Source: a virus. From it: a stretch of DNA of 25,047 bases. Shown here piece after piece: positions 1-21,189 of this stretch (position 1 is its first letter; the number at the start of each line of letters is the position of its first letter). The notes beneath the pieces were generated by a model, which saw only the letters and a list, made by a program, of their open reading frames with translations, ran no database searches and was not told the origin of the DNA. Where the stretch lies: positions 1 through 25,047 of the IMG/VR virus record IMGVR_UViG_3300023175_001936; one strand, given 5' to 3'. The position numbers were made by a program, and so were the translations under genes.

Positions 1-990
1 CATATGTGAAATTTCTCTTTCATCTTTATCTCCATATGCATTGTAATCAAACTTGTTTTGTAATTGACGAAGTTCTTTTTGTCCGAAGTTTTCGTATCCA
101 CCTTTTTGTTTCCACTTTCTCATTAGTCCTTTTTTAACTTTTGAGATTGCTGAACGAACTTGTGATGGTTTGAATTTTCCTTCGTTTACTGATTCTTTAA
201 TACCTTTTGGAAATGGTTTAATTAATGATAATACATCTCCTAATGAAGTTTCTTTACCATTTTGGAATTTTACTTTCCAATCAGTTCCATTAGACTTTTT
301 ACCTTTTATTAAGGTAACAGGTCTACCTGCAACTTTATATGATTCTTCGTTTACTGATTCATCGAATCCATATTTGTACCCGCCTTTGTGTAATGTATTT
401 ACAAACTTTGCTAAATCTTTTTTGTTTCTGAAAATTTGGATATCAAAGAAATCACTACCATCTTTATGTTTCTTTTTACCATCGTGGTAAGAAATTACAT
501 ATTTTGATTTACCAACACCATCTTTTTGATTGTATCTTTTTTGTCCTTCGTTTACTGATTCACCGATTAAAGAATCTACATCATTGTGTACATCTTTCCA
601 CTTAGTAAATTTTTTATTACGAAGTGCACTATAAAGAGCGATTGTATATTTCTGTGATGAATTATGGATTCTTGATTTTACTAAATCAACTGCACCATAT
701 TGAGGTTTTCCTTTTTGGATTGAATCAACTGCTACTTTGAATGCTTTATAATCGTTAAATGCTTGTTCTTTTCTTCTATCTGTGATAACTTGAGTAATAT
801 AATCTTTTGCCTTACCCATATCACCTTTGAATTTATCTAAGATTTGTTGAGCACCTTTATCATTTCTTTGTAATGCTCTTTCAAAGTTTCCAATTTGAGT
901 TTTTGCTAAACCTTGAGCGTTGAAGTAATCTCTTTTATCAAAGATACCATATACTTTTTCGAATGTTCTATCGTTTGATTTAAATGCCAT
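1..990 (-). CDS. Modular head-associated protein with ESVNE linkers (3' end outside window)
   Basis: The start is ATG at 990 with AGGAG five bases upstream, and 330 codons stay open to the window edge, so the C-terminus is missing. The N-terminal part (about residues 1-140) is charged and probably mostly helical, with no family I recognise. The pentapeptide ESVNE occurs at residues 144-148, 211-215 and 266-270. Between copies lie compact modules of about 60 residues: one starting near GQKRYNQKDG, one containing YKVAGRPVTLIKGKK, then a basic stretch starting GKFKPSQVR. The first and third copies are followed by Gly, matching the T4 prohead protease pattern. It follows the 237-residue gene by nine bases in the prohead block. 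I infer an internal head or cargo protein cut during maturation; enzymatic function is unknown. Confidence 0.8.
   Translation of the reverse strand, partial: MAFKSNDRTFEKVYGIFDKRDYFNAQGLAKTQIGNFERALQRNDKGAQQILDKFKGDMGKAKDYITQVITDRRKEQAFNDYKAFKVAVDSIQKGKPQYGAVDLVKSRIHNSSQKYTIALYSALRNKKFTKWKDVHNDVDSLIGESVNEGQKRYNQKDGVGKSKYVISYHDGKKKHKDGSDFFDIQIFRNKKDLAKFVNTLHKGGYKYGFDESVNEESYKVAGRPVTLIKGKKSNGTDWKVKFQNGKETSLGDVLSLIKPFPKGIKESVNEGKFKPSQVRSAISKVKKGLMRKWKQKGGYENFGQKELRQLQNKFDYNAYGDKDEREISHM
181..195 (-). repeat. ESVNE linker repeat, copy 1
   Basis: Exact 15-base copy encoding ESVNE (codons GAA TCA GTA AAC GAA), followed by Gly. It separates the VAGRP module from the basic module of the partial gene. 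Confidence 0.85.
346..360 (-). repeat. ESVNE linker repeat, copy 2
   Basis: Exact 15-base copy, same frame and same codons as copy 1. It is followed by Glu-Ser rather than Gly or Ala, so it would be a weaker protease site than its neighbours. Confidence 0.85.
547..561 (-). repeat. ESVNE linker repeat, copy 3
   Basis: Exact 15-base copy followed by Gly. It marks the end of the roughly 148-residue N-terminal region of the partial gene. Confidence 0.85.
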
Positions 991-999
991 ATCTACTCC

Positions 1000-1713
1000 T
1001 TAACAGTCTCTCCAACCACCACCTTTTGATTTGTAATTTTTTGCTGCCCAACCATTTGCGTATGCAGATGGATAAACATCAAATTTAGATTTAGCTGCTG
1101 CTTTGGATGCTGCCCATTTACCTTTATCAGTAGGACAACTTTTTTCCATTAATTTTTCTACTTTCTGACCAAACTCATAGAGTTTCATTTCTTCTTCGTT
1201 TAAATCAGTTACTTCTTTAAGAGTAGTAGTAATAGTTCCATTAGAATTTCTTTTGGAAACCATTACTGGTGTTTCATTAATTGAATCACATCCACAATCT
1301 TCAGTAGATTCTTTGATACCCAATCTTTGTTTCATTTGGTCCTCTGTAATCTCTCCGAACTTATAGTATCTTGAAAGGATGTGTCCCATATCTTCGTATA
1401 ATCCTGCCATTCTTTGGTCAAGTGCACGAGCTTCAAGAGCAACTTTATCGAATTGTTTACCCAACTTATCCAATTCACTCATGTTTCTCTTAACAGTATG
1501 TTTATCGAACCAATCTCCTGCTTCTCTAATAGCAAGTGTTCTAGCAGCCTCAGTAATTCCACCAAGTGTTTCTGCTACTTGAGTAATATCTGATTTCCTA
1601 TCCATTGATTCTTGATACTTGTTGTAAGTAGAAACAATTTCAAGAAAATGTTTTTTAACCTCTGTTGATAGAGGTCTTTCTTCATTTTCTTTCATTAGTT
1701 GGGTTAGTTTCAT
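1000..1713 (-). CDS. Conserved-type phage head-region protein, 237 aa
   Basis: ATG at 1713 is preceded by AAGGAGA at good spacing. The protein opens with MKLTQLMKENEE, a short charged helix like the capsid-targeting leader of T4 internal proteins. Residues 15-135 are strongly helical and include GGITEAARTL, where ITE-A fits a prohead protease site. A CGC pair (ESTEDCGCD) is followed by SINE-T. The last 40 residues are Lys/Ala-rich and end in a segment with KFDVYPSAYANGWA and GGGW, which I recall from other phage proteins without known function. By position it could belong to the scaffold or core set, as T4 gp22 does, but I cannot identify it. It starts 10 bases after the 475-residue gene. Confidence 0.82.
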   Translation of the reverse strand: MKLTQLMKENEERPLSTEVKKHFLEIVSTYNKYQESMDRKSDITQVAETLGGITEAARTLAIREAGDWFDKHTVKRNMSELDKLGKQFDKVALEARALDQRMAGLYEDMGHILSRYYKFGEITEDQMKQRLGIKESTEDCGCDSINETPVMVSKRNSNGTITTTLKEVTDLNEEEMKLYEFGQKVEKLMEKSCPTDKGKWAASKAAAKSKFDVYPSAYANGWAAKNYKSKGGGWRDC

Positions 1714-1723
1714 TGTTCTCTCC

Positions 1724-3151
1724 TTAAAATAATTTTTTTAATTTTTTATCACCATAAACATCAGCGAAGTACCACTTCTTATCTTTCATATTGTATAAAT
1801 ATACATATTCTGCCATACCGTTTCTATCAGCAGCATCTACATATTTACCAAAATCTTTTAGATTACCTTTAGTTGGTTTTCCACTTTTGTAATATTCAAT
1901 ATCTTTATCATTATAGATTCCTCTTGCACCACCACTCTTAATTAACTTAAGAACATCTTTTTCATTCTTCATGTGTTTTTTAAGGCCTGGTTTCATATTT
2001 GATGGATAACCATCGTAGTGAACATATGCTGATGCAATCTTACCACTTCTATCAATGATACCAACTTGTGAACGAGTTCCTTCGTTGATTATATTTTCTT
2101 TAACAAGATTTGAAATACTAATTCTACCTTCTTTCTTCATATATTCTTTCTTATCAAAGATAGATTCGATTTTATCAGCAAAATCACTCATACCATTATC
2201 TCGTAGTTGTTTAGTTAGAGTTCCTACTGATTTAACTCCATCCCATTCAGCTGCATCTGAAGTTTCTCTACCCAATGCCGATGAATAATCATCTCTTTCA
2301 CTATATGTAGAAGCATATTTTTTTCTAATATCACCCATTTTCTTGTCGAAATCTGGGTCTGATATTGAAGGATACTCTGGTCTTTTTGCAAGTTCTGGTT
2401 TATCTTCTAAAACTGCAATTAACTCTCTTGCTTCAGTATGGAAGTTAGAATTAGTTAATGCCGAATAAACAGCTCTACCCATTGCAACCTTATAATCTTC
2501 TTCACCCATTTTTTGAGGAGTGATGCCATATTTTTTGGAAATCTTATCAGCAACTTTTTCAGCTTGAGGGTCTGATTCTAATTTTGGTTGAGATGGTTCT
2601 GATTTTGGTTCATCTTGTTTTGGTTCTGGCCAAGTATCATACGGACCAAGTACTACTTCCATAGCTTTAGCTGTAATTTCTGATGTTGCTTCTTCATATT
2701 CATCATCATCTCCACCCATCATCATTTCACCTTCTGCATCTTCCCAATCTGCGGCTAAATCTTTTAATTTTTTTCTTTGTTCATCCGATAAACCTTCTTT
2801 TGATTCTGCATAATCTAATAGTGCATCAGCTGAACTTATTTCTTCTATCTCATTGTATGCATCATCAGAGTATGGTAGATATGATTTAGAAGGTTCTGAA
2901 TTTGGTTCAGATTTAGGTTCTTCTTTATCTTTGTTGAAGATGTTTACTTTAGGTGTATCTTTTTTAGATGGGTCTTTGACTCCACCATCTTTATCATCTT
3001 TTCTTTTTTCATGAGTTCCTGCTTTTATTGCAGCATCTCTCGCAGCTTTAGATTTGAATACAGAAGTTGTACCAGTTTCTTTACTTGTAGCAGTGAATAC
3101 ATCTGCTTCAGTAATCGGTTTTAAATCAACAAGACCACCTAATTTAATCAT
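1724..3151 (-). CDS. Acidic modular prohead protein, candidate core/scaffold, 475 aa
   Basis: I chose ATG at 3151, with GGAGA about ten bases upstream and one base after the preceding stop; a longer frame from 3196 lies inside the upstream gene. The leader MIKLGGLVDLKPITE is followed by Ala, a possible gp21-type cleavage that would remove 15 residues. A long acidic, Pro/Ser/Glu-rich low-complexity stretch follows (about residues 45-195, with MMMGGDDDEYEE), then a helical region. At residues 355-357 INE-G precedes a different C-terminal module beginning GTRSQVGIIDRSG and containing YVHYDGYPSN. That recalls a domain of unknown function seen in other phages (often written CHWDGYP). The acidic centre suits a scaffold or core role; the C-terminal module may be released cargo. 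Both are inferences. Confidence 0.8.
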   Translation of the reverse strand: MIKLGGLVDLKPITEADVFTATSKETGTTSVFKSKAARDAAIKAGTHEKRKDDKDGGVKDPSKKDTPKVNIFNKDKEEPKSEPNSEPSKSYLPYSDDAYNEIEEISSADALLDYAESKEGLSDEQRKKLKDLAADWEDAEGEMMMGGDDDEYEEATSEITAKAMEVVLGPYDTWPEPKQDEPKSEPSQPKLESDPQAEKVADKISKKYGITPQKMGEEDYKVAMGRAVYSALTNSNFHTEARELIAVLEDKPELAKRPEYPSISDPDFDKKMGDIRKKYASTYSERDDYSSALGRETSDAAEWDGVKSVGTLTKQLRDNGMSDFADKIESIFDKKEYMKKEGRISISNLVKENIINEGTRSQVGIIDRSGKIASAYVHYDGYPSNMKPGLKKHMKNEKDVLKLIKSGGARGIYNDKDIEYYKSGKPTKGNLKDFGKYVDAADRNGMAEYVYLYNMKDKKWYFADVYGDKKLKKLF

Positions 3152-3152
3152 C

Positions 3153-3335
3153 TTACTTTGTCTCCGTTTTATGTGTATATAAATCAAGTTTACCATCTTC
3201 GGTTAACTTAACTTCATAATTAGTTTTTCTTATATCGTTGTGTCCACCTTTGAATGGAGTTTCTCCTACTTCTCTGGTAACTTTACCCAACTTAAATTTA
3301 TTTTTGGACATAAAGTCCTGTACATTAAATGCCAT
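3153..3335 (-). CDS. Small head-region protein, 60 aa
   Basis: This short frame starts with ATG at 3335, four bases after the protease stop, and ends one base before the 475-residue start. That tight fit between two real genes is the main evidence that it is coding. The protein is basic and soluble, with FKLGKVTREVGETPFKGGH near its centre. There is no leader of the capsid-targeting type and no protease-like site. I do not recognise a family; a minor prohead or capsid component is the likely inference from place alone. Confidence 0.7.
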   Translation of the reverse strand: MAFNVQDFMSKNKFKLGKVTREVGETPFKGGHNDIRKTNYEVKLTEDGKLDLYTHKTETK

Positions 3336-3339
3336 AATT

Positions 3340-3933
3340 TTAACTTAATTCTGTTATAATTTCTCTCATCATATCTTGTGCCTTACACCATTCGTTACAA
3401 ACTACTGTTTGTTTTTGAAGTTGTTTATTCACAGATTCATTCATTGGCACCATAAATGCACCATGTGTAGATGGATTGGATACAAAATCCCAACCAATCA
3501 ATTCAAAATCTTCTCCTACTTGTACTTTACCACCCGATAAAGGTTCTACCGAACCCATACCACGAGATGATATACCAAGAAGGATTCCTGCTTTTAATAA
3601 TTCTTTTAAGATGTTTCCACTTGGTGTAGGTAATATCTCTACTGTACCAACTAAATCTTCACCATCCCAATGAATCTCTCTTACATTGTGAGATACATTC
3701 TTTAGGTTGATTACAGAAGAATCAGGATGGTCTAATTCACCCAATGCTCTTCTTTCTTTAATAAGTGTTTCGTATTTTTTTGCTTCTCTCATCAGAATCT
3801 CTTTTGGGTAGATTCTTCCGTTTTGATTTTCCGCACCAGCTCTTTGTAAAATACCCTTAACGATAGTTCTTCCACTATCATCTTCGTTTACTCTACCTTC
3901 GAATAATCTGGTTTCTATTAATAGTTTACTCAT
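3340..3933 (-). CDS. 21: Prohead core protease (T4 gp21-like), 197 aa
   Basis: This is the maturation protease that acts inside the assembled prohead and cuts scaffold, internal and capsid proteins after a hydrophobic-x-Glu motif. Seen here are NQNGRIYPKEIL (residues 36-47), ELDHPD with candidate catalytic His69, LPTPSGNILKELL (101-113), GISSRGMG with candidate Ser122/123, and GWDFVSNPS (148-155). Length is close to T4 gp21 (about 212). ATG at 3933 overlaps the preceding TAA and has GGGGAG just upstream; a TTG four codons earlier is less likely. The C-terminal tail carries MNESVNKQ, nearly the ESVNE linker but with Lys in place of the final Glu. It sits amid the genes it probably processes. 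Confidence 0.92.
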   Translation of the reverse strand: MSKLLIETRLFEGRVNEDDSGRTIVKGILQRAGAENQNGRIYPKEILMREAKKYETLIKERRALGELDHPDSSVINLKNVSHNVREIHWDGEDLVGTVEILPTPSGNILKELLKAGILLGISSRGMGSVEPLSGGKVQVGEDFELIGWDFVSNPSTHGAFMVPMNESVNKQLQKQTVVCNEWCKAQDMMREIITELS

Positions 3934-4109
3934 TACGCTCCCCAAGTTTTTCTTTTCTTAAACAAATCAAAAAAGATTGCTGATACCTCTTGTCTGATAA
4001 TTTTTCGGATTAAATCCTTATCAGATTCATTGAGTTCTTCGTTGATTGTTCCTTTTTTAAAATTAACGATTTCCTCATTGATAATATCATACAACTCTTT
4101 CTTAGTCAT
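3933..4109 (-). CDS. Small core-like protein, 58 aa, coupled to the protease
   Basis: An ATG at 4109 opens 58 codons, ending in TAA that shares bases with the protease start (TAATG). It begins one base after the upstream gene's stop. The protein starts MTKKELYDIINEEIV and continues with TINEELNESDKD: charged, almost all helix, with repeated INE/LNE motifs. Size, leader and location just before gene 21 resemble small prohead core proteins such as T4 gp67 and gp68, though I see no direct homology. One-base coupling suggests it is made together with the protease. Confidence in coding is good; function is inferred from position. Confidence 0.72.
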   Translation of the reverse strand: MTKKELYDIINEEIVNFKKGTINEELNESDKDLIRKIIRQEVSAIFFDLFKKRKTWGA

Positions 4110-4110
4110 T

Positions 4111-4845
4111 TTATTTTAATTTACCTTTTTTTGCATCTCTCATTAAATCTTCGAGTGCTCTAATTTGGTCTTGTATTGCTGTTGCTAAATCTACATTTCT
4201 GTATTTAGCTTGTTTTCTTACAGCCAACAATGCTATTCTTTTTTCTTCAGTAGAAGGCCCTTCGTTTATTGATTCTTCGTTTACTGATTCAAACTTGATT
4301 GATTTACCGTATTTTTTTTGTAATTTTTTAATAAGTTCTTCTTTACTTTTAGCAGTTTCATTACCTCTATCAAAACCAAACTTTTGGATTGGTTTACCTG
4401 TTTTAGGATTTAAGGCTGCAGTTAGTTCTCTGAATCCCTTATTATCTCCAACAATTTGAACCATAGTATCATTATCTACTTTGATTGGTTTAGATACAGT
4501 TCTTGCTTCGTTTACTGATTCTTCTTCAGAACCAAATGTTGGTCCTTCATGTCCTCTACCAAATCTTTCTGTTTTATATTCTTTACCATCTACTTCAAAA
4601 GAATCATCACCATCTTTTTTCGCTTTTGCTACAGCAGCTCCAAATGCATTACCTTCAGATTTCTGTCCTCTACCTTGCCAAGTTTTTTCAATCTTGTTAA
4701 AGAATGCCTTCTTTTCTTCATCAGACATAGAAGGAATAGATTTTCCAGCCTTTTCTAATGCCTTTTTAAAGAAAGTTTGATACTCTGATTCTTCTTGTAA
4801 AGTTTCTCTTACAATATTTTTAAGTTGTTCTTTAGTAATTTTCAT
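4111..4845 (-). CDS. Modular head-associated protein with three ESVNE/ESINE linkers, 244 aa
   Basis: ATG at 4845 overlaps the upstream stop as ATGA. The leader MKITKEQLKNIVRETLQEE is an amphipathic helix of the kind common at the N-termini of T4-like internal head proteins. Residues 20-60 contain KAGKSIPSMSDEEKKAFF, then GNAFGAAVAKAKKDG and EVDGKEYKTE, motifs I recall from other phage head-region proteins. ESVNE at 109-113 (then Ala) starts a second module, ARTVSKPIKVDND, about 70 residues. A tandem ESVNE-ESINE at 186-195 (then Gly) starts a helical, basic C-terminal module. The layout suggests three separable modules. No catalytic motif is visible. Confidence 0.82.
   Translation of the reverse strand: MKITKEQLKNIVRETLQEESEYQTFFKKALEKAGKSIPSMSDEEKKAFFNKIEKTWQGRGQKSEGNAFGAAVAKAKKDGDDSFEVDGKEYKTERFGRGHEGPTFGSEEESVNEARTVSKPIKVDNDTMVQIVGDNKGFRELTAALNPKTGKPIQKFGFDRGNETAKSKEELIKKLQKKYGKSIKFESVNEESINEGPSTEEKRIALLAVRKQAKYRNVDLATAIQDQIRALEDLMRDAKKGKLK
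4261..4290 (-). repeat. Tandem ESVNE-ESINE linker
   Basis: An exact 15-base copy (4276-4290) is followed directly by a copy with one base changed (4261-4275), giving Ile for Val. Gly follows the second. This is the only back-to-back pair, and suggests duplication of the linker itself. Confidence 0.85.
4507..4521 (-). repeat. ESVNE linker repeat in the 244-aa gene
   Basis: Exact 15-base copy followed by Ala, at residues 109-113, between the GNAFGAA/VDGKEY module and the PIKVDND module. Confidence 0.85.
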
Positions 4846-5630
4846 TTCTCAATCTCCTGTATCGTTTTAGCGATTTTGATTAGTTTCTCTTTTATAGTAT
4901 AAATATGATTATTTGTTCTTTTCCAATAGTTCTGAGAATCTAACTCGTTCATCGTTTTAATTTTATTATACCAATTGAAAAACTTTTCTACTTCTTTTAA
5001 TTGATACTTTAATTCTTTTAAACCCATTGCCATCTTCTTATGAGGATGCATGGTTTCATCGTTTTTTAATTCTAACCAACGATTTACTGGTCTTTTTATT
5101 TTAGCTTCGTTTACTGATTCTTTTAAATATTTTTTCCAATCTGAAAATTCTGGTGCCTGAGGAACTTCTATAAAATTAGTTTTATACCTTAACTTAGGTT
5201 GTTTACTTAAATCATATCCTAATCGAACAGCAACTTTCTTTTTTAAATCTACATAAAAAAGTGCTCCATGATAATCAATTAAATACGCACCCTTTTTACC
5301 ATCAATAAATCCAGGTATGTTTTTCAATAAAACTCCAGGAGTTGTAAGTCCTAAACCAGAATGTCCTGCAATATATTGTACAGGTGCATCTTTAGTAAGT
5401 TGAAAGTATTTATGTCCTGATTTTGGAGATATCAATCCTTCTGCAAGAGTATATCCTGCTTGAGTAGCAGTTTCTTTTTCTTTCTTCTTATCTTTTTTAC
5501 GATTATTACCAAAAGCAAAAGGAGTATTATACCCAGCAACATTACCTGTTGTGGTAGCCTCTTCTAATTCTTGTTCTACTTCATCAAGAATTTCATCTAA
5601 GATTTCTTTAAGAGTTTTTTCCATTGACAT
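4842..5630 (-). CDS. Modular head-associated protein with one ESVNE linker, 262 aa
   Basis: The first of two nearby ATGs (5630) has AAGGAG eight bases upstream and is preferred. The leader MSMEKTLKEILDEILDEVEQ is an acidic amphipathic helix. After a Lys-rich linker (KKDKKKEKE) comes a probable beta-rich module, about residues 64-150, with GHKYFQLTKDAPVQYIAGHSG and DYHGALFYVDL. ESVNE at 171-175, followed by Ala, separates it from a helical C-terminal module. It overlaps the upstream gene by 23 bases and the downstream one by four. I recognise no enzyme family; internal head protein or cargo is inferred from leader, linker and neighbours. Confidence 0.8.
   Translation of the reverse strand: MSMEKTLKEILDEILDEVEQELEEATTTGNVAGYNTPFAFGNNRKKDKKKEKETATQAGYTLAEGLISPKSGHKYFQLTKDAPVQYIAGHSGLGLTTPGVLLKNIPGFIDGKKGAYLIDYHGALFYVDLKKKVAVRLGYDLSKQPKLRYKTNFIEVPQAPEFSDWKKYLKESVNEAKIKRPVNRWLELKNDETMHPHKKMAMGLKELKYQLKEVEKFFNWYNKIKTMNELDSQNYWKRTNNHIYTIKEKLIKIAKTIQEIEK
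5106..5120 (-). repeat. ESVNE linker repeat in the 262-aa gene
   Basis: Exact 15-base copy followed by Ala. It is the most upstream exact copy; no copy occurs in the portal, terminase or sugar genes. Confidence 0.85.
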
Positions 5631-8319: not shown

Positions 8320-8700
8320 TTACCATGCTCTACATGACCAGTATCTAGCTTTGTGTCTTGGGCCTGGATTATCACAATTATGTCTTGCTCTAAAAGATTT
8401 TCTCCTTTCAGGGTTATTCTTTTTGATTGACATCGTTTTCTCTCCACCTTTTCCTTTATGACCAAAGTTTACTTTTACTACATTACCTTGGGGATTTTTA
8501 ACATATACTTTGAACTTTTTAACATCACCTTGCATTGGTTTACCAAGTTTTACTGTTCTACCTTGATATTCCGCTTCGTTAATATCTGGTTTATACGATT
8601 CCATGAATTCTTTAAACTCTTTGATATCGTGATAGTTTTCTACGAAATATTCATTGCAATATGATTCGTTTTCATTAAGTAAGTTTTTCATTGAAATCAT
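8320..8700 (-). CDS. Small basic head protein with removable leader, 126 aa
   Basis: ATG at 8700 has AAGGAG ten bases upstream; the next ATG is too far from it. Residues 1-42 form an acidic leader ending DINE, followed by Ala, matching the prohead protease pattern. The remaining 84 residues are basic and compact: EYQGRTVKLGKPM, KFKVYVKNPQGNVVKVNFG, then RRKSFRARHNCDNPGP and ARYWSCRAW. This C-terminal Arg/Cys motif is one I recall as strongly conserved in many tailed phages, often as an unnamed structural protein. Cys residues in HNC and SC could bind metal or form a disulfide. It lies between terminase and portal. I infer a processed internal or capsid-associated protein. Confidence 0.83.
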   Translation of the reverse strand: MISMKNLLNENESYCNEYFVENYHDIKEFKEFMESYKPDINEAEYQGRTVKLGKPMQGDVKKFKVYVKNPQGNVVKVNFGHKGKGGEKTMSIKKNNPERRKSFRARHNCDNPGPRHKARYWSCRAW

Positions 8701-11719: not shown

Positions 11720-14700
11720 TTAGAAGAAAATACCAAGTATTTGGTTTACTGATGCAAATGTACCTGTAAGTTTGAAGGTATTTCCATTATATAAGAAAAC
11801 TATACCTTCATTCGGTACTATTTTTTTAGAACCTCCAATAGAATTTAATCTTTGGAGTTCTAATTTAAGTTTTTCTATCTTTTTTGGGTCTCCTGATTTC
11901 TTAACATCCTTGATTGTTTTATCAATTCTCTTTTTCATATCACGAACTGCTGCATCAGGGTTTACAGTTAGAGCAGATGAAGTAAATTCTAACACTTCTG
12001 CTCCTAATCCTAAGAAAATCTGTTCAAACTTCATTAAATTCTGTTTAGAAATCTTCTTTTGGTCCTCTTTATCTATCTTTTTAGCCCATTCAAGTGTTTT
12101 AGAATCAGTAATATTCTTATTATCTAATCTAAACTTCTTATCCATGAATGCCCATCTCTTAACTAACCCCATTTTAGTTTTGTTATCAAGTGTTGATGGT
12201 GAATTTTTATCAACCCATTGTTCCCACCATGCTTGATGGTAGTTTGCAACACCATCCGTATCCTTTAATCCGAATTCTTTTTGTAATTTAGAGATTTGAG
12301 ATGAATATTTACTTCTTTTCTTTGATAAATCGGTAGATTTAGGTAGTTTTACAACAGGTGGGCCTTGAATCGTATAATTATCTTGTACATCTTTGTTAAC
12401 TTGTTTAATCATACCTGCCAAGATTCTTGCAGCCTCACCATTTTCACCAATTGCAACACCCTCATCGTTATATTCCATCGTTCCATGGAATACAAGTAAC
12501 GCTTGACCGTAAGGAATTACATTAACTGATGTTGGATATATCACTTCAAGGTTCATAAAACACGCACCTTGTTTAAAAATCTTATCTCTTTGTTTATCGT
12601 TAAGAGAAGATATAGCATTTGAAAGGTCTTTCATTGCATAGTTGTAAGCATCTGATAATCCACCTCTACCTTGGAACTTATCTGATACACCTTTGATATC
12701 TAATGCGTTCTCACCTTTGTTTTTAAGGTGTCCTTTGTTCCTAGCTGCTACTAATCTTCCATCTCTCCATGAAATTGCAAGAGCTTGACCATCAGTTTTC
12801 TCTCTTGTAAACTCAAGTGTACCTTCGAGTGCACGATTTACGATATCTTTTAATTGTCCAAAGGTTAAATTGATATCAGTATCGAATGGGTGAGACATAT
12901 GTCCATACGCACCACCTTCTGTAATGATACCTTCTCCTAATCCACCTCTATCATGTTTAGAAAACTTACTTAATTTATCAAAATTTGGATGAGATTTTAA
13001 ATCAGATTGTTTCTTAGGTCTCATATCAGATAGTTGTTTGTATCTCATATGATTTTTTACTATATAGTGAACCGTATCTACATTACCACCAACTGATTCA
13101 ATCCATTTTTTGTACTTATTTACTAAATTAGCAGATACTTTCTCATGTCCAAAGTGTGTGATATGTCCTTTCTTTGGATGAATTCCCGCAGTTTCATCTT
13201 TTCCTATATCGTGGAACATTGCTGCGATTGCAATATCGATATCATCTTCTTTGATTGAACGATTTACAACTGTGATTGTATGTTTAAGTACATTCCCTTC
13301 AGGGTGTTTATCAATTCTCTGTCCAAAGTTCTTTAAGTTATACACTCTCTTTTGTAAATCAGATGGCATTTTCTTAAAGAGTGATTTGAAATCGGTGATT
13401 CCTAATTTTTTAAGTTCTTTACCTTCTCTAATTGGTTCATATTGATACTCTTGATTTGAATCAGTATTATTTCTTTGTTTCTTAACTCTTTTTTCGATTC
13501 GTTTTAAATCATCTTTAGATGGATATCCCATACGAATACCACTTTGACCAGTACCAACTCCTACTTCCTCTATGGTTGCAAGTTTTGTGTAGTATTTTGG
13601 GTCCTCGAATAAGTGGTCTTTAGCGATATCGTATGCAACTTTTACATCTGAAGTGTGTTCCATTTCAACTTTAACACCTTTTCCTGCTTCTTTCTTTAAT
13701 TCTTCGAAAGAAACTTCGTGTTTTTCTGCAATATCTCTTAAACTCATACCTTTTGCAAGTTGTTCAAATGCAAGAACAGGGTTAGATGTTTTAAAATCAT
13801 CCTTTCTCATTACTGTTTTTGCAATAATCTGATTTGCTTGTTTAACAAATGGAATATTGATATCATGTCTTTTATCTTTTACAACGATTTGTTGATATTT
13901 TTCTAAGAATTCTTTAAATTTCTTTTTATACTTTGATAATCTTTTAAAAAATCCCGTCAATTCTGCATCAGAAATTTCTTTTCCATTACGAGGGTCGTTC
14001 AATCTATCGAAAAAATGTTTTGTGAACTCAATATCTTCTGGTGATAATTGTTTCTCAGCATATTTTTCAATCTTATTAAGAGTAGATTTAGACATTTCAT
14101 TTGTTTCTTTTGGTTTATTAAATGAAATGTTTGATTTGTTATCAAATTTATCTACTTCTGCATCTCTAAGTTTAGGTAAGAACTTAAATCTTGCTCTTTT
14201 TAAAACTCTTTTCTTTTTTCTAAGTACATTTTTATGAACTACCTTTGCCTGTTGAATAGTTAATTCTGCTTTTGTTTTACCAGGAAACAAATCTTCCATA
14301 AATTCTTTGTAAACTTCTAAGTATGCTTTTTTGTATGCAATCTTTTTAAGTTTATCAATAGATTTTCTTCTTTTCATGGTACGAGCTCTTCTTCGTTGAA
14401 TCTGTGCTCGTTTACCAGCCATTTTAGCCTTTCTTCTTAGTAAATCTGCTGGTCTTAACTTTCCTTTACTTCTTTCATCTATATCTACATCTTCAGATAA
14501 TCCCATTTTTTCTTGCCAAGAATCAAATGCATCAAAATCATATTCTTGTTTTTGTGAATCCCAACCACAAGAATGACATAAGTATTTTTCAGTATCTTCT
14601 GATTCTATTTCCCAAGAGTGATTACATTTCTCACACTTAACTTCTGTTCCAGCAATAGATTCTCTTAAACCAATAGATTCATTCTTCATCATTTTATCAA

Positions 14701-16984
14701 CCAACCCTACATGAGATTCACCTGCTATGACAATTGGTATTTTTCCTTGAGAAGATAATTCTTTACTTTTTTTAATAAGGTGTTCATCTCTTGTTTCATT
14801 AAATGCATCTTGAATATCACCTATCTTTGTTTGTTTATCTTTGTTATCTTCTGGAAATGCTAAACGATATAATGTTCCTTTATCGCCACTTCCTTTCCAA
14901 TCATTTTCATCACTTGGGGTTTCACCTGTTGGATTCTCCCAATTTTCTATTGGAGGAAATCCTGCCTCTTTTGCTGCAGATTGTATGTATTCTTTTCCTT
15001 CATCATCTAAAAAATCATCAGGACTCATGGTATCAGTTCCTTCACCCTGTCCAATCATACTTGCCCAATTACCTGCATTAACTTGTGATTGATTAAGACC
15101 AGTTTTTTCCATTTGTCTTTTATACAATTTGGATTGGTCATTATGAACATCCATTTCATCACCATCCCATGTATCAATACCTGCACCCAATTCTTTGAAT
15201 TTAGGAACAGCATAATCCATTTCATCATTGAATTCTAATTCACCATTATCTCCAGTTGCACCACCTTCACCTACGAATACAATATCTTTCCATCTTTCTT
15301 TTGGTATGTTCTTTTTAACATCATCAAGGATATCATCAACCATTGCGGTTTCTCCGTGCTCCGTTCCATATACTTTACCACCACCATCTAAACCAAGATT
15401 TTGAATTTCTTTACCAGACTTTTTTCCTTGTAAAGTTGTTACTTTTGATTTTGGTTCTTCTTTGGGTTGTGGTTTTTCATTTGAAGTATCTCCACTAATC
15501 TTTTTTTGAATCTCTTTTTCTTTTTTTACTTTATTGTCATACCCACCTTGTTTTAAAGATGTACCTTGTTTTGGCTGTGGTTTAGTTTTACCATCTTTAT
15601 CTAACTCAATATATTTTCCACTATCATCTTTTTTGAAAGTTGGGTCATCTTCACCTTCTTTACCTTTTAGTTTATAGTTACCATTACCTACATGGGTATA
15701 TTTCTCATCTTCTTTTTCATCTTCAAATATTGCTTGGAAACCTTCTTTCATCAATCTAAAGGTTACTACCTTTTTACCATTGATAGTTGGCATTCCATGT
15801 TCATCTTTACCAATTGTTTTTACAGTTACTTTTTTATTTTTAAATCTACCCGTTAGGATAGTATCACCAACCTTAACAGGTAATACAATATTTTCGTTTA
15901 AAGAATTTTCAAATTCATCTTTCAATTCTTTATCACCTTTTGCTAAATTACCAGATTGATTTTTATCTTGAGAAATATCAGCTTTTGCAGAAATTGATTT
16001 TACTAATTCATATCCAGCTAAAGTTGCCTTACGGGTTGCATGTTTAAACCATTGTGAGTATGCACCACTTGAGTAAATATCTATCTGGTTGTTGGGAGTC
16101 ATATTACCAATAATACCTGCTGGAAAGAATGAAGTTGCCTTAACAGGTCCATTTGGATAGTTTGGGTGGTCATAATAATCTTCGATTTCTTGTGTGGTAA
16201 TCATATTAAGAACTTCCCAACCTATTTTCTTAGCTCTATCTATATTTACCTTTGAAAACACATCGTAATTTGGAAAAAAGAAGCTTGGCCCATCATCAAC
16301 ATCACTTCCAGCGTTCCCACCTAAGTTAGAACTCTCATTGATGAGCCATTCTTCAATTACTTCTTTAGGAATCTCAATTCCTTCATTAAGTTTATCAGTA
16401 ATCATTTTGAAAATCGTCATATTGAACTTTCCATATGCACGATTCTTAAAGAAGTTTTGTTTTTGTTCATCCGAACCAACTGATAACCCATTACGAGTTT
16501 CAGTTCCACTTATACCCCTACCTTGTGATGGTGAAGCATAAACATATCCACCCTCTTCATAACCAATTTCGGCCTTTCCTTTCCATGGTCTAAAATACTT
16601 TCCACCTAATCTACCAGAATCTTTCTCACCAACAACGGTTACGAAGGCAGTTGTTTCTTTATCGTATTTATCGAGGATTTCTTTCGGTGCATAATTGTTT
16701 CTTACCTGTACTATTTTTGATTTAGGTATATTGAACATCGTAGTCATGATTTTCACCTTCTCTTTGAAGTTAAAAGGTGATTTGGGTTTTTCTACTTTGT
16801 TGGAAGTACTGATAAAAACATTATTCTTACCGAATTTTTTGACAAGGTGTTGGTATGTGCCATAGTGTCCTTTATGGAATGGTTGAAATCTACCACCATA
16901 AATTACTACGACCTTTTTAATAGGATTTTCATCCTCTAAGAGCATTTGCTCTACGAGATATTGTGAAAGTTCATTCATATTCAA
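11720..16984 (-). CDS. Giant multi-enzyme polyprotein, 1754 aa: NMNAT-like, zinc ribbon, HD hydrolase, KxDG ligase-like
   Basis: Domains in order: leader 1-20; NMNAT-like nucleotidyltransferase 21-195 (GGRFQPFHKGHYG, later ISGTETR); unknown module 218-364; small module 365-415 (GRFKNKKVTVKTIG); a longer unknown module about 515-765 with GTEHGE, VGEGG and GESHVG, faintly like Tiki/TraB/ChaN proteins; zinc ribbon (Cys784, 787, 803, 806); Arg/Lys-rich 838-945; a KHFFDRLNDPRNGKEIS module; DUF5661-like segment 1100-1140 (KVEMEHTSD); HD hydrolase 1188-1345 (His1235, His1258-Asp1259); and ligase-like nucleotidyltransferase 1357-1754 (KTDG at 1396, EGIVF at 1726, Lys1738). LNE-G, INE-S, LRE-S, IRE-G and ITE-G lie near junctions. 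The second ATG (16978) is an alternative start. The frame is open throughout. Cleavage into separate enzymes is inference. Confidence 0.9.
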   Translation of the reverse strand: MNMNELSQYLVEQMLLEDENPIKKVVVIYGGRFQPFHKGHYGTYQHLVKKFGKNNVFISTSNKVEKPKSPFNFKEKVKIMTTMFNIPKSKIVQVRNNYAPKEILDKYDKETTAFVTVVGEKDSGRLGGKYFRPWKGKAEIGYEEGGYVYASPSQGRGISGTETRNGLSVGSDEQKQNFFKNRAYGKFNMTIFKMITDKLNEGIEIPKEVIEEWLINESSNLGGNAGSDVDDGPSFFFPNYDVFSKVNIDRAKKIGWEVLNMITTQEIEDYYDHPNYPNGPVKATSFFPAGIIGNMTPNNQIDIYSSGAYSQWFKHATRKATLAGYELVKSISAKADISQDKNQSGNLAKGDKELKDEFENSLNENIVLPVKVGDTILTGRFKNKKVTVKTIGKDEHGMPTINGKKVVTFRLMKEGFQAIFEDEKEDEKYTHVGNGNYKLKGKEGEDDPTFKKDDSGKYIELDKDGKTKPQPKQGTSLKQGGYDNKVKKEKEIQKKISGDTSNEKPQPKEEPKSKVTTLQGKKSGKEIQNLGLDGGGKVYGTEHGETAMVDDILDDVKKNIPKERWKDIVFVGEGGATGDNGELEFNDEMDYAVPKFKELGAGIDTWDGDEMDVHNDQSKLYKRQMEKTGLNQSQVNAGNWASMIGQGEGTDTMSPDDFLDDEGKEYIQSAAKEAGFPPIENWENPTGETPSDENDWKGSGDKGTLYRLAFPEDNKDKQTKIGDIQDAFNETRDEHLIKKSKELSSQGKIPIVIAGESHVGLVDKMMKNESIGLRESIAGTEVKCEKCNHSWEIESEDTEKYLCHSCGWDSQKQEYDFDAFDSWQEKMGLSEDVDIDERSKGKLRPADLLRRKAKMAGKRAQIQRRRARTMKRRKSIDKLKKIAYKKAYLEVYKEFMEDLFPGKTKAELTIQQAKVVHKNVLRKKKRVLKRARFKFLPKLRDAEVDKFDNKSNISFNKPKETNEMSKSTLNKIEKYAEKQLSPEDIEFTKHFFDRLNDPRNGKEISDAELTGFFKRLSKYKKKFKEFLEKYQQIVVKDKRHDINIPFVKQANQIIAKTVMRKDDFKTSNPVLAFEQLAKGMSLRDIAEKHEVSFEELKKEAGKGVKVEMEHTSDVKVAYDIAKDHLFEDPKYYTKLATIEEVGVGTGQSGIRMGYPSKDDLKRIEKRVKKQRNNTDSNQEYQYEPIREGKELKKLGITDFKSLFKKMPSDLQKRVYNLKNFGQRIDKHPEGNVLKHTITVVNRSIKEDDIDIAIAAMFHDIGKDETAGIHPKKGHITHFGHEKVSANLVNKYKKWIESVGGNVDTVHYIVKNHMRYKQLSDMRPKKQSDLKSHPNFDKLSKFSKHDRGGLGEGIITEGGAYGHMSHPFDTDINLTFGQLKDIVNRALEGTLEFTREKTDGQALAISWRDGRLVAARNKGHLKNKGENALDIKGVSDKFQGRGGLSDAYNYAMKDLSNAISSLNDKQRDKIFKQGACFMNLEVIYPTSVNVIPYGQALLVFHGTMEYNDEGVAIGENGEAARILAGMIKQVNKDVQDNYTIQGPPVVKLPKSTDLSKKRSKYSSQISKLQKEFGLKDTDGVANYHQAWWEQWVDKNSPSTLDNKTKMGLVKRWAFMDKKFRLDNKNITDSKTLEWAKKIDKEDQKKISKQNLMKFEQIFLGLGAEVLEFTSSALTVNPDAAVRDMKKRIDKTIKDVKKSGDPKKIEKLKLELQRLNSIGGSKKIVPNEGIVFLYNGNTFKLTGTFASVNQILGIFF

Positions 16985-17139: not shown

Positions 17140-18523
17140 AATTTTTTAAGTTTGTTATAAATTCTCTTTCAGTATCTTGTTTACTTTCAGCATATTTAAA
17201 AAGTAAAGATTGATTATGTATAAGTATATCTTTAATTGAATCATACCAATTATGTATTTCTTCAGTTGATAACGAATTTAATCTTAGTATTTCATCAGAA
17301 ATCATTTTTATTCTTAACGCATCATTATGTTCATTATCATACTCTTCATTTATAAAAGGTGAAAATGTTTTAAAACCTATATTTCGTAATTCTTGTAATG
17401 CACCAGCTTTATTAACTTGTATAAATGGTTGTAAATGTCCTATTGGTTTCCAAGTTTTTTCTGAAAGGTATAAACCATCTTCATAAAAATTTGTTTCGGT
17501 ACAAATATTAATATATGAATCTAAGTAAGGTTGTTTGTTTTCAAAATTAAATCCCCAAACAGAATTTATATCATCATAATCAATAGTTTCTTTTTTATTG
17601 TTTATAATATCAAACGATTTTTCGTAAAGTTCCTCACCTATAACATCACCTGCATGATGTAAGTAAAATGATAAATCATTTTCTCTATCAAATAAACTTA
17701 TATCATAAGAAACCAAGTTTTCTTTTATAAAATCTAAACCTAACAAACATAACAAAATCATTCGTTGAGGTCTTAATCTTCTATTCATCAATAAAAACTT
17801 TGTTTTACGAATTTTTGAATCTAAATCTTCAGATTTAACAATACTATTTTGTTGGTCGATATCATCCCAAAATTTATAATCAACCCCATCATAAATCTCT
17901 TTTAATTCTTTTGATTTAAATCGTAAAGACCATGGCCAGTAAACCATTTTTACTTTTTTCGGATTATGGTTTCTTACTTTTTTATGTAATGTTTCAATAT
18001 CAACTGCGGATGATAATAAAATTACTTTATTTTCTGGTATTTCATATTTTTCTAATACTTCATACAAATTAGAGAAAAAATCAATAGGAAATACTCCCTC
18101 AGTGCCATAGTTTATAATAAGATAAAAATTATCATTTGTTTTAATGTTATTTAAACTATCTTTCGAAATAAAATCTATAAAACAACTTTCTGAAAATCCT
18201 CCAAATTGTTTTCCTAAAAAATGATTAAAATTACCAAATGGCTCTACGAGATAAAAACACACATCATTTTTATATCTTGTATTATTTAAGTAATCATGTA
18301 TTGTTAATTTATTAAACAATAAATGGTCTGAATTTAAAAATACATTAAATACAGATGGTTGTACAAAATTTTTAAAAAAATGATTTTGTAATTCAAAATC
18401 TGATACGAAATCTTTTTCAAAGTATTTTTGTGAATAATAGTAATTTAATGCATTAGGAATCCAGTCATTTGGTCCTCTAAAATCATAAATTATATTCAGA
18501 TTTTTTATTTTTTCAACTTGCAT
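17117..18523 (-). CDS. Putative phage glycosyltransferase, 468 aa (paralogue 1)
   Basis: The C-terminal half carries the features of a phage glycosyltransferase-like family: an Arg-rich strand LLMNRRLRPQRMILL (244-258), YLDSYINICTETNFYEDG (333-350), LSEKTWKPIGHLQPF (353-367) and IGFKTFSPFINEEYD (382-396). In related sugar-transferring enzymes the TEK/SEKT-KP segment lies at the donor-binding site. The N-terminal 230 residues are divergent and not recognised. It overlaps the E1-beta-like gene by 11 bases. A clear paralogue lies at 22101-23342, sharing the C-terminal motifs but not the N-terminus, as if the two act on different acceptors. Transferase activity is family inference; donor and acceptor are unknown. 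Confidence 0.75.
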   Translation of the reverse strand: MQVEKIKNLNIIYDFRGPNDWIPNALNYYYSQKYFEKDFVSDFELQNHFFKNFVQPSVFNVFLNSDHLLFNKLTIHDYLNNTRYKNDVCFYLVEPFGNFNHFLGKQFGGFSESCFIDFISKDSLNNIKTNDNFYLIINYGTEGVFPIDFFSNLYEVLEKYEIPENKVILLSSAVDIETLHKKVRNHNPKKVKMVYWPWSLRFKSKELKEIYDGVDYKFWDDIDQQNSIVKSEDLDSKIRKTKFLLMNRRLRPQRMILLCLLGLDFIKENLVSYDISLFDRENDLSFYLHHAGDVIGEELYEKSFDIINNKKETIDYDDINSVWGFNFENKQPYLDSYINICTETNFYEDGLYLSEKTWKPIGHLQPFIQVNKAGALQELRNIGFKTFSPFINEEYDNEHNDALRIKMISDEILRLNSLSTEEIHNWYDSIKDILIHNQSLLFKYAESKQDTEREFITNLKNYVVDKKN

Positions 18524-19061
18524 AATACAATTCAGGATATTCTACTAATATATGTATTCCACCTTTAGATAAAGCTGTTTTGTAAGCAGGCAATATTTGT
18601 TCTGATGATTTTAAATCTTGAATGGTAACATTTGTTAACATTTGTTTGAATGGTTCTGTATAGTTTGCTTTGTGTTGATGGCCAGGGTCTAATGGTTTAT
18701 CAGAACCTTTACCAACTCTTACAATTACGTTTGGTTTCCACTCACCATCAGACATCGCTTCTAACTTATCCAAGTGATTAATAAGTTGGTTTGCTGCAAG
18801 AATAAGAAAATCCCATCTTGGGTAGAAAGTAACAACTTGGTGTCCTGTCATTGCAAGACCCATTGTCATTCCCATTTGAGTTTCTTCCATTACTGGAGTT
18901 TCAATCATTCTATCTTTTGGTAAACCTTCAATGGTTTTTGACATTGGGTTTCCGTAATACACAATCTGTTGGCCAATAAAAATTGTAGATGGATTGCCCA
19001 TACAAAGTTTCATAGCTTCTGTAAGTGCATCTACATATGGTGTAAATTCTGGTTTACTCAT
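18513..19061 (-). CDS. Short E1-beta/transketolase-type TPP pyrimidine-domain subunit, 182 aa
   Basis: This matches the pyrimidine-binding domain of two-subunit thiamine-diphosphate enzymes such as pyruvate dehydrogenase E1-beta. Seen are TIFIGQQIVYYG (26-37), the motif ETPVMEETQMG, with Glu59 in the place of the catalytic Glu that activates the cofactor, FYPRWDFLILAANQL, and DPGHQH (125-130), near the place of the usual GxQHSQ. E1-beta chains are about 325 residues; this protein ends after the first domain and lacks the transketolase C-terminal domain. The stop is natural and the next gene overlaps it, so it is not an obvious truncation. Its likely partner is the alpha-like gene at 23327, five genes upstream. 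Confidence 0.82.
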   Translation of the reverse strand: MSKPEFTPYVDALTEAMKLCMGNPSTIFIGQQIVYYGNPMSKTIEGLPKDRMIETPVMEETQMGMTMGLAMTGHQVVTFYPRWDFLILAANQLINHLDKLEAMSDGEWKPNVIVRVGKGSDKPLDPGHQHKANYTEPFKQMLTNVTIQDLKSSEQILPAYKTALSKGGIHILVEYPELYYAS

Positions 19062-20197
19062 AATATATCTGTTATTTTATTAATTTTTAGTTTTGTATCG
19101 AATACCACAGATATTCTTGTATTTGTTTTGCTATTATTTTTAAAATCATGAAAAGTATTACCTATGTATAATATATCATCATTAATATTTTCTATTTTAG
19201 ATATTTTATTATAGTTAAAAAATTCAAAAAATGAATTATCTGATGGCTGTATTTCATAAACATATCTGTTTGAATCGTGTGTCGAATCTTGATGGTATCC
19301 TAAACTATAATTTGGTGGATATTTCATTAACCAAATATTTAATAATTTAAAATTTTGTAATTTTTTGATTACATCATCAATTAAATTAGTATCAGTCAAA
19401 TCTTCATCATAAGCAACATTATTTTTATCAACAGAATATAGTAAATATTGTTTTTTATCATTATGTTTTACAACATCCAATAATGAATCAAAATCATTCT
19501 TATTAAAAATTTTATTTTTTACTAACTTTGGTAATTCTATTTTTTTAACATTTTCGTAATTACTTTTTTCTAATTCTTCAATAATAATTTTTGTTAAATA
19601 CTCATGACCCTTAAGATTAAAATGTGTATCACTATTTGAGAAATCCGCACCAATTGTTCTATAATCTCTTTTTTCGTTTACTACTAACATAGTATGATAA
19701 AAATCCAATTTATTATCATATAAAATAGTTCTACTTTTAATTTCTTCTGAAAGTTCTAATGTAGAATGCTCACCTCCCAAATCCATGTGAATAAATCTTA
19801 TTAAGATATCTTTTTCTTCTACAAACTTAATTAATTTATTAAATTCATCTATTTGTTTGTTATCATCTCCAAGTTGATTATATCCTCTTGCAAAACTTGT
19901 ACTCTGAACTATAATACAATCGGTGTTTGGATTTTCTTTTAACTTTTGATAAATCCATGTAACCATTAATGGATTTGAATTTCCATTCCTAGCAGCCACG
20001 ATTGGTTTTCTTCCAAAGTAATCAGCAACTTTTGTTGCAAATCTATTATCTACATTATATTGATAATGATGTGGTAATAATAATTTGTCATAGAAAAACC
20101 CATCACGAGGATGTTTATCATCATTAAAACCACCATATAAATGCAAACTTTGTCCCCATGTATAAGAACAACCTGCAAATATCATTGTTGAAATCAT
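19058..20197 (-). CDS. SGNH hydrolase fused to a 2OG-oxygenase-like domain, 379 aa
   Basis: Residues 1-215 look like an SGNH/GDSL hydrolase: MIFAGCSYTWG with candidate nucleophile Ser11, AARNGNSNP (68-76) as the Asn/Gly block, and SDTHFNLKGHEYL with His192. Such enzymes remove or transfer acyl groups on sugars. Residues 235-375 form a second domain: LGYHQDSTHD (His302-x-Asp304), RYVYEIQPSDNSFFEFF, GNTFHDF (His350) and NTRISVVFD (Arg361). An HxD, distal His and Arg fit the iron and 2-oxoglutarate pattern of aspartyl-hydroxylase-like enzymes. No signal peptide is seen. The gene overlaps both neighbours by one to four bases. Role in sugar acylation or oxidation is inferred. Confidence 0.78.
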   Translation of the reverse strand: MISTMIFAGCSYTWGQSLHLYGGFNDDKHPRDGFFYDKLLLPHHYQYNVDNRFATKVADYFGRKPIVAARNGNSNPLMVTWIYQKLKENPNTDCIIVQSTSFARGYNQLGDDNKQIDEFNKLIKFVEEKDILIRFIHMDLGGEHSTLELSEEIKSRTILYDNKLDFYHTMLVVNEKRDYRTIGADFSNSDTHFNLKGHEYLTKIIIEELEKSNYENVKKIELPKLVKNKIFNKNDFDSLLDVVKHNDKKQYLLYSVDKNNVAYDEDLTDTNLIDDVIKKLQNFKLLNIWLMKYPPNYSLGYHQDSTHDSNRYVYEIQPSDNSFFEFFNYNKISKIENINDDILYIGNTFHDFKNNSKTNTRISVVFDTKLKINKITDIL

Positions 20198-21189
20198 TAC
20201 GGTCTTGAATTTGGGTCAAACTGGTCTTTGTTTTCTTTATACCAACGAAGTGCATCTTCTAATCCACTTCTTAAATCGTATTTTGGTTTCCAACCAAGTT
20301 TTAATAATTTTTCATTTGATAATAATCTCTTTGGAATCATCGGTGCTTTATTGTTAACAAACTCAATTGGATTGTCGTTCCCCTCAATCTCTTTGATAAG
20401 TTCTAACACTTCCATTACAGTATATCCTTTACCAAAACATACATTGTAGATATCATAGGTATCCACATTTTCTGCAACTGTGATAAATCCACTAACCATA
20501 TCATCAACATGGATGATATCTCTTACCTCAGTACCATCGCCCCAAAGTGGAATTGGATTTAAATTATCTGCAACTTTTCTGATATTCGCAGGTGTTACAT
20601 GACACTTTTCAAAATCGTACTTATCATTTGGTCCAAACGAGTTAGATGGTCTGATAATTACACATTGCATTGGGTCATGGATTTGATTTGAAAAGAACTC
20701 ACAAAGAGTTTCTCCATATCTCTTCATCCAACCCACTGCTTTGTAAACAGGATAGATGTTTGGTGTTTGTACATTCATATCTTCTGTGCAATACTCTTCA
20801 CCAACATCTGGATATGTTGTATTAGAAGAAATAAACATAAACTTACGAACTTTGTTTCTCCAACTTTGTTCCATAAGGTTTGTATTCATTTCAACATTAG
20901 GAGTAACATGAAGAAGTGGATTCACTTTTGTATCTAAAGCATTTGAAGTATTTGCTGCTGCATGAAATACAACATCTACATCCTTTGATACTTCTTCACA
21001 AAATTCTGCAGTTCTTAAATCTCCTTTTAAAAACTCAACATTTTCACATCCTTCGAAATCGTTTCTTAAATCTCTACTCCAAGATGTTGCTCTAAGGTTG
21101 GTGTACCCATTTTCGTATAACATCTTGATTAATCGTGAACCAATAAATCCACTTGCACCTGTAACTAAAATTTTATCTGTTTTGTTCAT
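20197..21189 (-). CDS. NAD-dependent epimerase/dehydratase (extended SDR), 330 aa
   Basis: An extended short-chain dehydrogenase acting on a nucleotide sugar. The dinucleotide loop is GASGFIG (11-17), followed by GDLR near residue 58 and HAAA (76-79). The catalytic set is intact: Ser121/122 in FISSNTTYP and Tyr146-x-x-x-Lys150 in YPVYKAVG. IRPSNSFGP and VRDIIHVDDMV are typical of UDP-sugar and GDP-sugar epimerases. Length is normal for the class. It overlaps the preceding epimerase by 17 bases and the next gene by one. The exact substrate cannot be told from sequence; a 4-epimerase or GDP-fucose-synthase-like enzyme is possible. Confidence 0.88.
   Translation of the reverse strand: MNKTDKILVTGASGFIGSRLIKMLYENGYTNLRATSWSRDLRNDFEGCENVEFLKGDLRTAEFCEEVSKDVDVVFHAAANTSNALDTKVNPLLHVTPNVEMNTNLMEQSWRNKVRKFMFISSNTTYPDVGEEYCTEDMNVQTPNIYPVYKAVGWMKRYGETLCEFFSNQIHDPMQCVIIRPSNSFGPNDKYDFEKCHVTPANIRKVADNLNPIPLWGDGTEVRDIIHVDDMVSGFITVAENVDTYDIYNVCFGKGYTVMEVLELIKEIEGNDNPIEFVNNKAPMIPKRLLSNEKLLKLGWKPKYDLRSGLEDALRWYKENKDQFDPNSRP

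Follow-up and report, generated by a model that had tools for sequence, protein, structure and literature searches.

Arrays of exchangeable modules joined by candidate head-protease linkers beside gp21 in an uncultured T4-like phage lineage

Introduction

Few parts of the virion are understood as poorly as the proteins that phages carry within their heads. Here we describe the head-gene region of a 25,047-nucleotide stretch of viral DNA (IMG/VR record IMGVR_UViG_3300023175_001936, positions 1 to 25,047; hereafter the window), in which a 15-base word encoding the peptide ESVNE recurs in three genes around the gene for the prohead protease gp21. These genes are modular arrays, their modules have been shuffled between genes and between phages, and the linkers that carry the word are the module boundaries. 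Reading from the sequence, we hold it to be likely that in this lineage of T4-like aquatic phages the array genes encode prohead-core polyproteins, built of reshuffled modules that are joined by linkers for the head protease. Through a few such polyproteins, if they are cut and packaged as the sequence suggests, the phage probably loads and swaps assorted small virion cargo. Is ESVNE indeed a cleavage site, or is it an uncut linker; are the modules cargo or pieces of scaffold; and is the word kept for its peptide or for its DNA?

The locus

The features of the window that bear on these questions are listed below. All lie on the minus strand; a slash in a motif marks the predicted cut, and P1' is the residue that directly follows it. 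Array genes were called as open reading frames (ORFs) and compared with relatives; structures were predicted with AlphaFold2 (AF2), whose confidence is given as the predicted local distance difference test (pLDDT).

1..990, minus strand: array gene C, truncated at the window edge (423 amino acids in the relative L008), with a helical N-terminal module, m4, m43 and m11; an ORF call that equals the first 330 amino acids of the L008 ORF, modelled by AF2 as separate domains
1..180, minus strand: cargo module m11, partial; seen in gene A, B or C depending on the relative
181..195, minus strand: linker ESVNE, exact word (word search), P1' = G
196..345, minus strand: cargo module m43, 50 amino acids (module clustering)
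346..360, minus strand: linker ESVNE, exact word (word search), P1' = E, outside the A/G/S rule
361..546, minus strand: cargo module m4, 62 amino acids, KYxISYHDGKKKHKDGSDFF...; 26 distinct instances in relatives, AF2 pLDDT 89 in isolation
547..561, minus strand: linker ESVNE, exact word (word search), P1' = G
3340..3930, minus strand: prohead protease gp21 (S77) with GELDHP and GISSRG motifs; Pfam PF03420 E=2e-26, PHROG 207 E=3e-49
4111..4845, minus strand: array gene B, with N-terminal module m0, one cargo module and C-terminal module m7 (ORF call, relatives)
4114..4260, minus strand: constant C-terminal module m7 (GPSTEEKRIA...; module clustering, junction test)
4261..4275, minus strand: linker ESINE, one mismatch (word search), P1' = G
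4276..4290, minus strand: linker ESVNE, exact word (word search), doubled with ESINE
4291..4506, minus strand: cargo module, 72 amino acids, unclustered; relatives differ here, L010 having m3 and L043 none
4507..4521, minus strand: linker ESVNE, exact word (word search), P1' = A
4842..5630, minus strand: array gene A, with a leader ending LEE/A, core module ATTTGNVAGY..., linker and constant C-terminal module m1 (ORF call, relatives)
4845..5105, minus strand: constant C-terminal module m1 (NRWLELKND...), preceded by residues that obey the cleavage rule in 42 of 44 distinct contexts
5106..5120, minus strand: linker ESVNE, exact word (word search), P1' = A
8320..8700, minus strand: stand-alone cargo gene, with a leader ...DINE/A and module m28 (PHROG 7595; PHROG match)

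The C-terminal module of array gene C falls beyond the window edge. The metagenome contig L008, whose gp21 is identical to that of the window and which carries the same 330 amino acids as the cut ORF 1-990, extends the operon to terminase, portal, gp21, array genes, an acidic scaffold-like protein and a T4-type major capsid protein. Judged by its sequence, the window has the marks of a gp21-processed prohead, namely an S77 protease in the head cluster and sites with a hydrophobic residue, any residue and glutamate followed by a small residue.

The repeated word in the window and in its relatives

On the minus strand the word reads GAATCAGTAAACGAA and encodes ESVNE. It has six exact copies (181-195, 346-360, 547-561, 4276-4290, 4507-4521 and 5106-5120), and a single-base variant at 4261-4275, GAATCAATAAACGAA, encodes ESINE. 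The seven copies lie exactly where an earlier note on this DNA had placed them, all in frame and spread over the ORFs 1-990, 4111-4845 and 4842-5630 around gp21 (3340-3930); at up to two mismatches, the rest of the window offers just one unrelated two-mismatch site, at 11741. P1' after ESVNE is G, E and G in the first of these ORFs, A and E in the second and A in the third, and after ESINE it is G, so the note's tally of A or G endings (four direct, one more through ESINE-G) is correct, with ESVNE-E at 346-360 as the misfit.

Chance or codon bias might be suspected of producing such repeats in an AT-rich genome with strong GAA usage, and so might a faulty assembly. However, ESVNE is seen six times in the head-region proteins against 0.007 expected from amino-acid composition, codon usage in the window would give the exact 15-mer for 5% of ESVNE peptides, and ORFs elsewhere carry up to six copies. 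Because two other metagenome contigs, L008 and L009, hold six exact copies each, the word is not an assembly artefact. We regard this explanation as already refuted.

To place the word in a wider setting, IMG/VR was scanned for gp21 relatives and for the bare 15-mer, which gave at least about 190 distinct loci. The word-selected loci are the biased part of this sample, and word-derived counts are lower bounds. Figures on codons, P1' residues and prevalence in relatives come from the gp21-selected loci alone; those on shuffling, breakpoints, junctions, non-repetition and charge come from both sets together and hold among the loci listed. ORFs run from ATG to stop, the contigs are fragmentary, and modules were clustered by blastp; single-linkage clustering was dropped, as it chained unrelated modules together.

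The earlier note had proposed a search of related phage genomes for the word, and it is present there: 47 of the gp21-selected loci are 9 kb or longer, and of these 28 carry the exact word, 39 carry ESVNE or ESINE, and 25 do so in three or more copies. In many relatives the word is the commonest repeated 15-mer. The S77 protease is encoded on 19 of 20 large contigs that bear the word or a near copy. A 664-residue ORF (L159) and an 858-residue ORF (L187) each contain six ESVNE, spaced 58 to 111 residues apart.

Exchange of modules

At least 197 array ORFs from at least 149 loci, cut at their linkers, yielded at least 732 modules in at least 325 clusters, 223 of them singletons; between word copies the modules are 40-130 residues long. 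The clusters m0 and m2 occur exclusively at the N-terminus and m1, m7 and m12 exclusively at the C-terminus; interior modules vary in their neighbours. Over 23 occurrences, m3 is preceded by 11 different modules and followed by 14; for m4 the figures are 13 and 11 over 17 occurrences. Of the 29 clusters with at least five members, 17 have three or more neighbours on each side. Modules such as m4 and m11 lie in gene A in some phages and in gene B or C in others, and 31 copies of gene A with both ends intact have 23 distinct interiors. A locus hardly ever holds two related modules: a single such pair is seen, where 36 +/- 6 would be expected.

Since cutting at linkers could make evidence of shuffling circular, homology was measured again on uncut proteins. 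Of the internal alignment ends found in this way, 30% fall at a linker in both partners, about 22-fold more than the 1.4% at random positions, and they concentrate on the residue that opens or closes the linker. Close relatives show the same at the nucleotide level. Gene A of L076 and L077 is 97.9% identical except for 489 bases that run from the start of one linker to just before the next, and L070 differs from L076, L077 and L078 by gains or losses of 282, 207 and 135 bases whose borders lie in linkers. The moving unit is a linker plus a module, and in the compared pairs its length is a multiple of three every time.

The head-protease rule at the junctions

In phage T4, gp21 cleaves after L/I-x-E (PMC9026906). 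Four modules were positioned by homology rather than by motif and the residues before them were scored for [ILVMF]xE/[AGS]; 121 of 124 distinct contexts fit, compared with 4.1% of random positions. Contexts that keep neither ES nor NE fit in 38 of 38 cases. After ESVNE in the gp21-selected relatives, P1' is A, G or S at 69% of sites against a background of 19%. The major capsid proteins of the lineage carry [LIV]xE/[AS] before a conserved GSEEW region in 33 of 33 cases, and these sites include VSE/A and VKE/A, which means that valine at P3 is probably acceptable to the protease.

Cultured phages carry module m28 (PHROG 7595; annotated in some phages as HVA1 family) as well. Three of those sampled, HTVC008M, C48C1 and immuto, have an S77 protease, and there the module follows a leader ending LEE/A, LTE/A or LDE/G; in HTVC111P, HTVC026P, CRP-902 and Aegir, in which no S77 protease was detected, the gene begins M-A-K-Y or M-A-T-Y, and this leaderless start coincides with the predicted mature N-terminus. 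The distribution of m28 is a natural experiment that agrees with the predicted cut site. The earlier note's view that ESVNE marks protease-cut linkers between cargo or core modules is well supported, further than the window by itself would allow, by the m28 starts, by the fit of the homology-placed junctions and by the excess of breakpoints at linkers, from which we infer the cutting itself.

Could ESVNE instead be a flexible linker that stays uncut, or a core-binding (capsid-targeting) peptide, so that the arrays act as multidomain proteins? AF2 does set the linkers between independent domains, and a third of the P1' residues lie outside A, G and S. Yet such a linker predicts no constraint on P3, P1 and P1' once the DNA word is gone, whereas the 38 junctions without ES or NE all keep it, and the m28 leader is absent in the four sampled phages without S77 protease. 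We think this explanation improbable.

Properties of the modules

Interior modules are small and basic, with a mean length of about 73 residues and a net charge of +0.074 per residue; 89% of them are positively charged, compared with 34% of other ORFs, and they contain 16% lysine against 9.6%. In the AF2 model of the 423-residue L008 array, the end domains reach pLDDT values in the nineties and the interior modules moderate to low ones, with low-confidence dips at the linkers (210-219 and 338-350). Modelled alone, m4 reaches the pLDDT given above, and its alignment has twelve invariant residues. In these models, several units of one ORF would fold independently and are split by candidate protease sites, as expected of a polyprotein that is cut.

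The model of the 423-residue array had no confident match in PDB or BFVD; for the m4 model the best match in PDB was a PH-domain-like arrangement (Z 6.7), within the range of common arrangements; and hidden Markov model searches with m3 and m4 against PDB gave nothing convincing. Most modules match nothing, and family searches found no peptidase family in array genes or modules. Among Pfam, PHROG and NCBIfam hits for 90 modules no annotated internal protein appeared, the T4 proteins themselves not being compared directly.

The charge of the modules bears on a further alternative, in which they are pieces of head scaffold (core) that are cut and then discarded or kept structurally, like gp22, gp67 and gp68, and no cargo is injected. 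The constant end modules do resemble core proteins, the array genes lie among portal, protease and scaffold genes, and gp21 cuts the T4 core proteins into several fragments. However, scaffold is acidic and the modules are basic, their turnover is high with almost no repeats within a locus, one module moves among three genes, and m28 also occurs in small phages without a detected S77 protease. Taken together, these points make scaffold pieces an unlikely account, if a less unlikely one than an uncut linker.

One word for DNA and peptide

The conservation of the word reaches beyond its peptide. The exact 15-mer stands at 162 of 220 different module-pair junctions, and junction information is confined to the bases of the word and the first base of the next codon, the flanks holding about 0.07 bit per base, near background. 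In relatives that were not picked for the word, 89 of 128 ESVNE are spelled in exactly this way, where codon usage would predict 6.7%. Recombination between cassettes at the word would yield such conservation.

Might the word then be primarily a DNA element, a site of recombination or of some other recognition, with the peptide incidental? Its nucleotide identity is well above the codon-usage expectation and insertions are bordered by it. Nevertheless, among the matches listed 245 of 246 ORF placements read the word in frame as ESVNE, junctions that have diverged in DNA still obey the peptide rule, and variant words border insertions too, which leaves a primarily DNA-level role very improbable.

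The proposed mechanism and what weighs against it

In the polyprotein mechanism that we favor, a constant N-terminal module and a usually constant C-terminal core module flank a variable row of small, mostly basic modules, neighbors being joined by ESVNE or its kin in the pattern [V/I/L]-x-E followed by A, G or S. Inside the prohead, gp21 would cut after the glutamate, as T4 gp21 does at L/I-x-E, and modules would be freed among the packaged DNA. With less certainty, the modules might enter the host with the DNA and act early on host functions or defences, like the T4 internal proteins. Homologous recombination at the word could add, drop or swap whole modules with the frame intact; because every junction has the same 15 bases in the same frame, such exchange would be frame-safe, which would explain conservation at the level of DNA. 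In its fullest form, which we offer tentatively, this would be a protein-level cassette system in which the 15-base word is both recombination seam and head-protease site, with injected anti-host modules on at least three polyproteins, each once per genome.

Several observations weigh against the mechanism or parts of it. About one third of the ESVNE sites in relatives carry another P1' (E, D, V, I or N), as does the exact copy at 346-360 in the window, and sites with such residues may be uncut or slowly cut. Interior modules lack a convincing functional match in Pfam, PHROGs, NCBIfam and PDB (PADLOC was not searched). Homogenisation of the word within genomes is not significant (0.556 vs 0.510 +/- 0.026); with words no more alike within than between genomes, gene conversion within a genome is unsupported, and exchange among phages is the likelier direction. 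Recombination at the word would be a reading of insertion borders. Some jumbo-size contigs place ESVNE arrays more than 100 kb from gp21. Lastly, tblastn with a seven-module array, the window array and gene A found no arrays in cultured phages.

The jumbo-size arrays lie on L215 (G004:214500-219500) and L216 (G001:82500-91500), and one of them is headed by a P-loop-like domain. The nearest cultured or assembled relatives compared, Microcystis phage Mel-JY01, Flavobacterium phage immuto and the huge phage LR756508, have no comparable repeated word in their head regions; immuto has a single ESVNEG, in a large protein upstream. LR756508 (L220, LR756508.1) is an uncultured phage of 484 kb whose capsid protein is related. 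In place of arrays it has small genes in a row, and several of these have a leader or early site ending xE/A, as if the cargo style were kept gene by gene.

Other features of the window

Similar sites occur elsewhere in the window, on the minus strand. ORF 1724-3196 has a proline- and glutamate-rich stretch (EPKSEP repeats) and then INE/G directly before a PHROG 1987 domain, so one cut there would free the C-terminal domain. ORF 11720-16984 encodes 1754 amino acids with a nucleotidyltransferase domain, a zinc-ribbon-like stretch, DUF5661 and an HD domain, and has LNE/G and INE/S sites between; module m39, which is like the C-terminal part of this protein, closes the ESVNE arrays of four relatives. 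Beside the head genes, also on the minus strand, 18513-24539 holds a run of sugar and thiamine-enzyme genes, with two NAD-dependent epimerases, one dTDP-4-dehydrorhamnose 3,5-epimerase, and a transketolase pyrimidine-binding domain and an E1 dehydrogenase domain on two separate ORFs.

Relation to known systems

The T4 gp21 rule and the injected internal proteins have been described (PMC9026906, PMC3012670, PMC12373910), and three T4 internal proteins each block one GmrSD restriction enzyme (PMC12373910). With IPI, IPII, IPIII and Alt, which have capsid targeting sequences and are matured by gp21, the arrays share T4-like head genes, an S77 protease and, by prediction, cleavage sites of the [L/I]xE type. 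The T4 internal proteins are also a small, basic and highly variable set, and the modules here are non-redundant; we take the likeness as analogy. In T4, each cargo has one gene and one N-terminal leader, whereas here many cargo modules sit together in a polyprotein, are joined at the same 15-base seam and change places within the chain. The core proteins gp22, gp67 and gp68 are cut several times by gp21 (PMC9026906), and repeated cutting of prohead-core proteins would be common to both; their fragments are scaffold peptides that are mostly removed from the head, whereas the modules here are conserved, change neighbours from phage to phage and, at least in some cases, are predicted to fold alone.

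Other systems offer partial parallels. The polyvalent proteins of phages and conjugative elements, which their authors compared to viral polyproteins, also fuse several effector-like domains that are thought to enter the host with the DNA (PMC5512222), but they carry their own peptidase domain, whereas the arrays consist of small modules with a linker that is common at the nucleotide level, and the head protease is a separate protein. In phiKZ and SPN3US, a gp21-like protease cuts many head and ejection proteins behind a short motif whose last residue is Glu; as far as the accessible text of those reports goes, propeptides are removed there from the products of separate genes and shuffled arrays are not described. 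At the DNA level, integron cassette arrays are likewise exchangeable cassettes strung at a common short seam; here the cassettes are in-frame protein modules without a start or stop of their own, and no integrase came to light, no search having been aimed at one.

The accessible parts of the literature searched neither describe such arrays nor mention ESVNE, preprints and many subscription journals lying outside that scope. Within the same bounds, there appears to be no earlier account of modules reshuffled at a shared in-frame word that doubles as the code for a protease site. The parts, gp21-processed internal and core proteins, are known; if cleavage is demonstrated, their combination may merit a separate class.

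Outlook

A linker that marks module boundaries by sequence would expose a large and hidden repertoire of candidate injected proteins in metagenomes, and the one gathered here comprises at least 325 module clusters from at least 149 loci, with predicted ends ready for expression. If the proposal is true, these phages would have a polyprotein strategy driven by the head protease in DNA phages, with recombination and proteolysis sharing one sequence.

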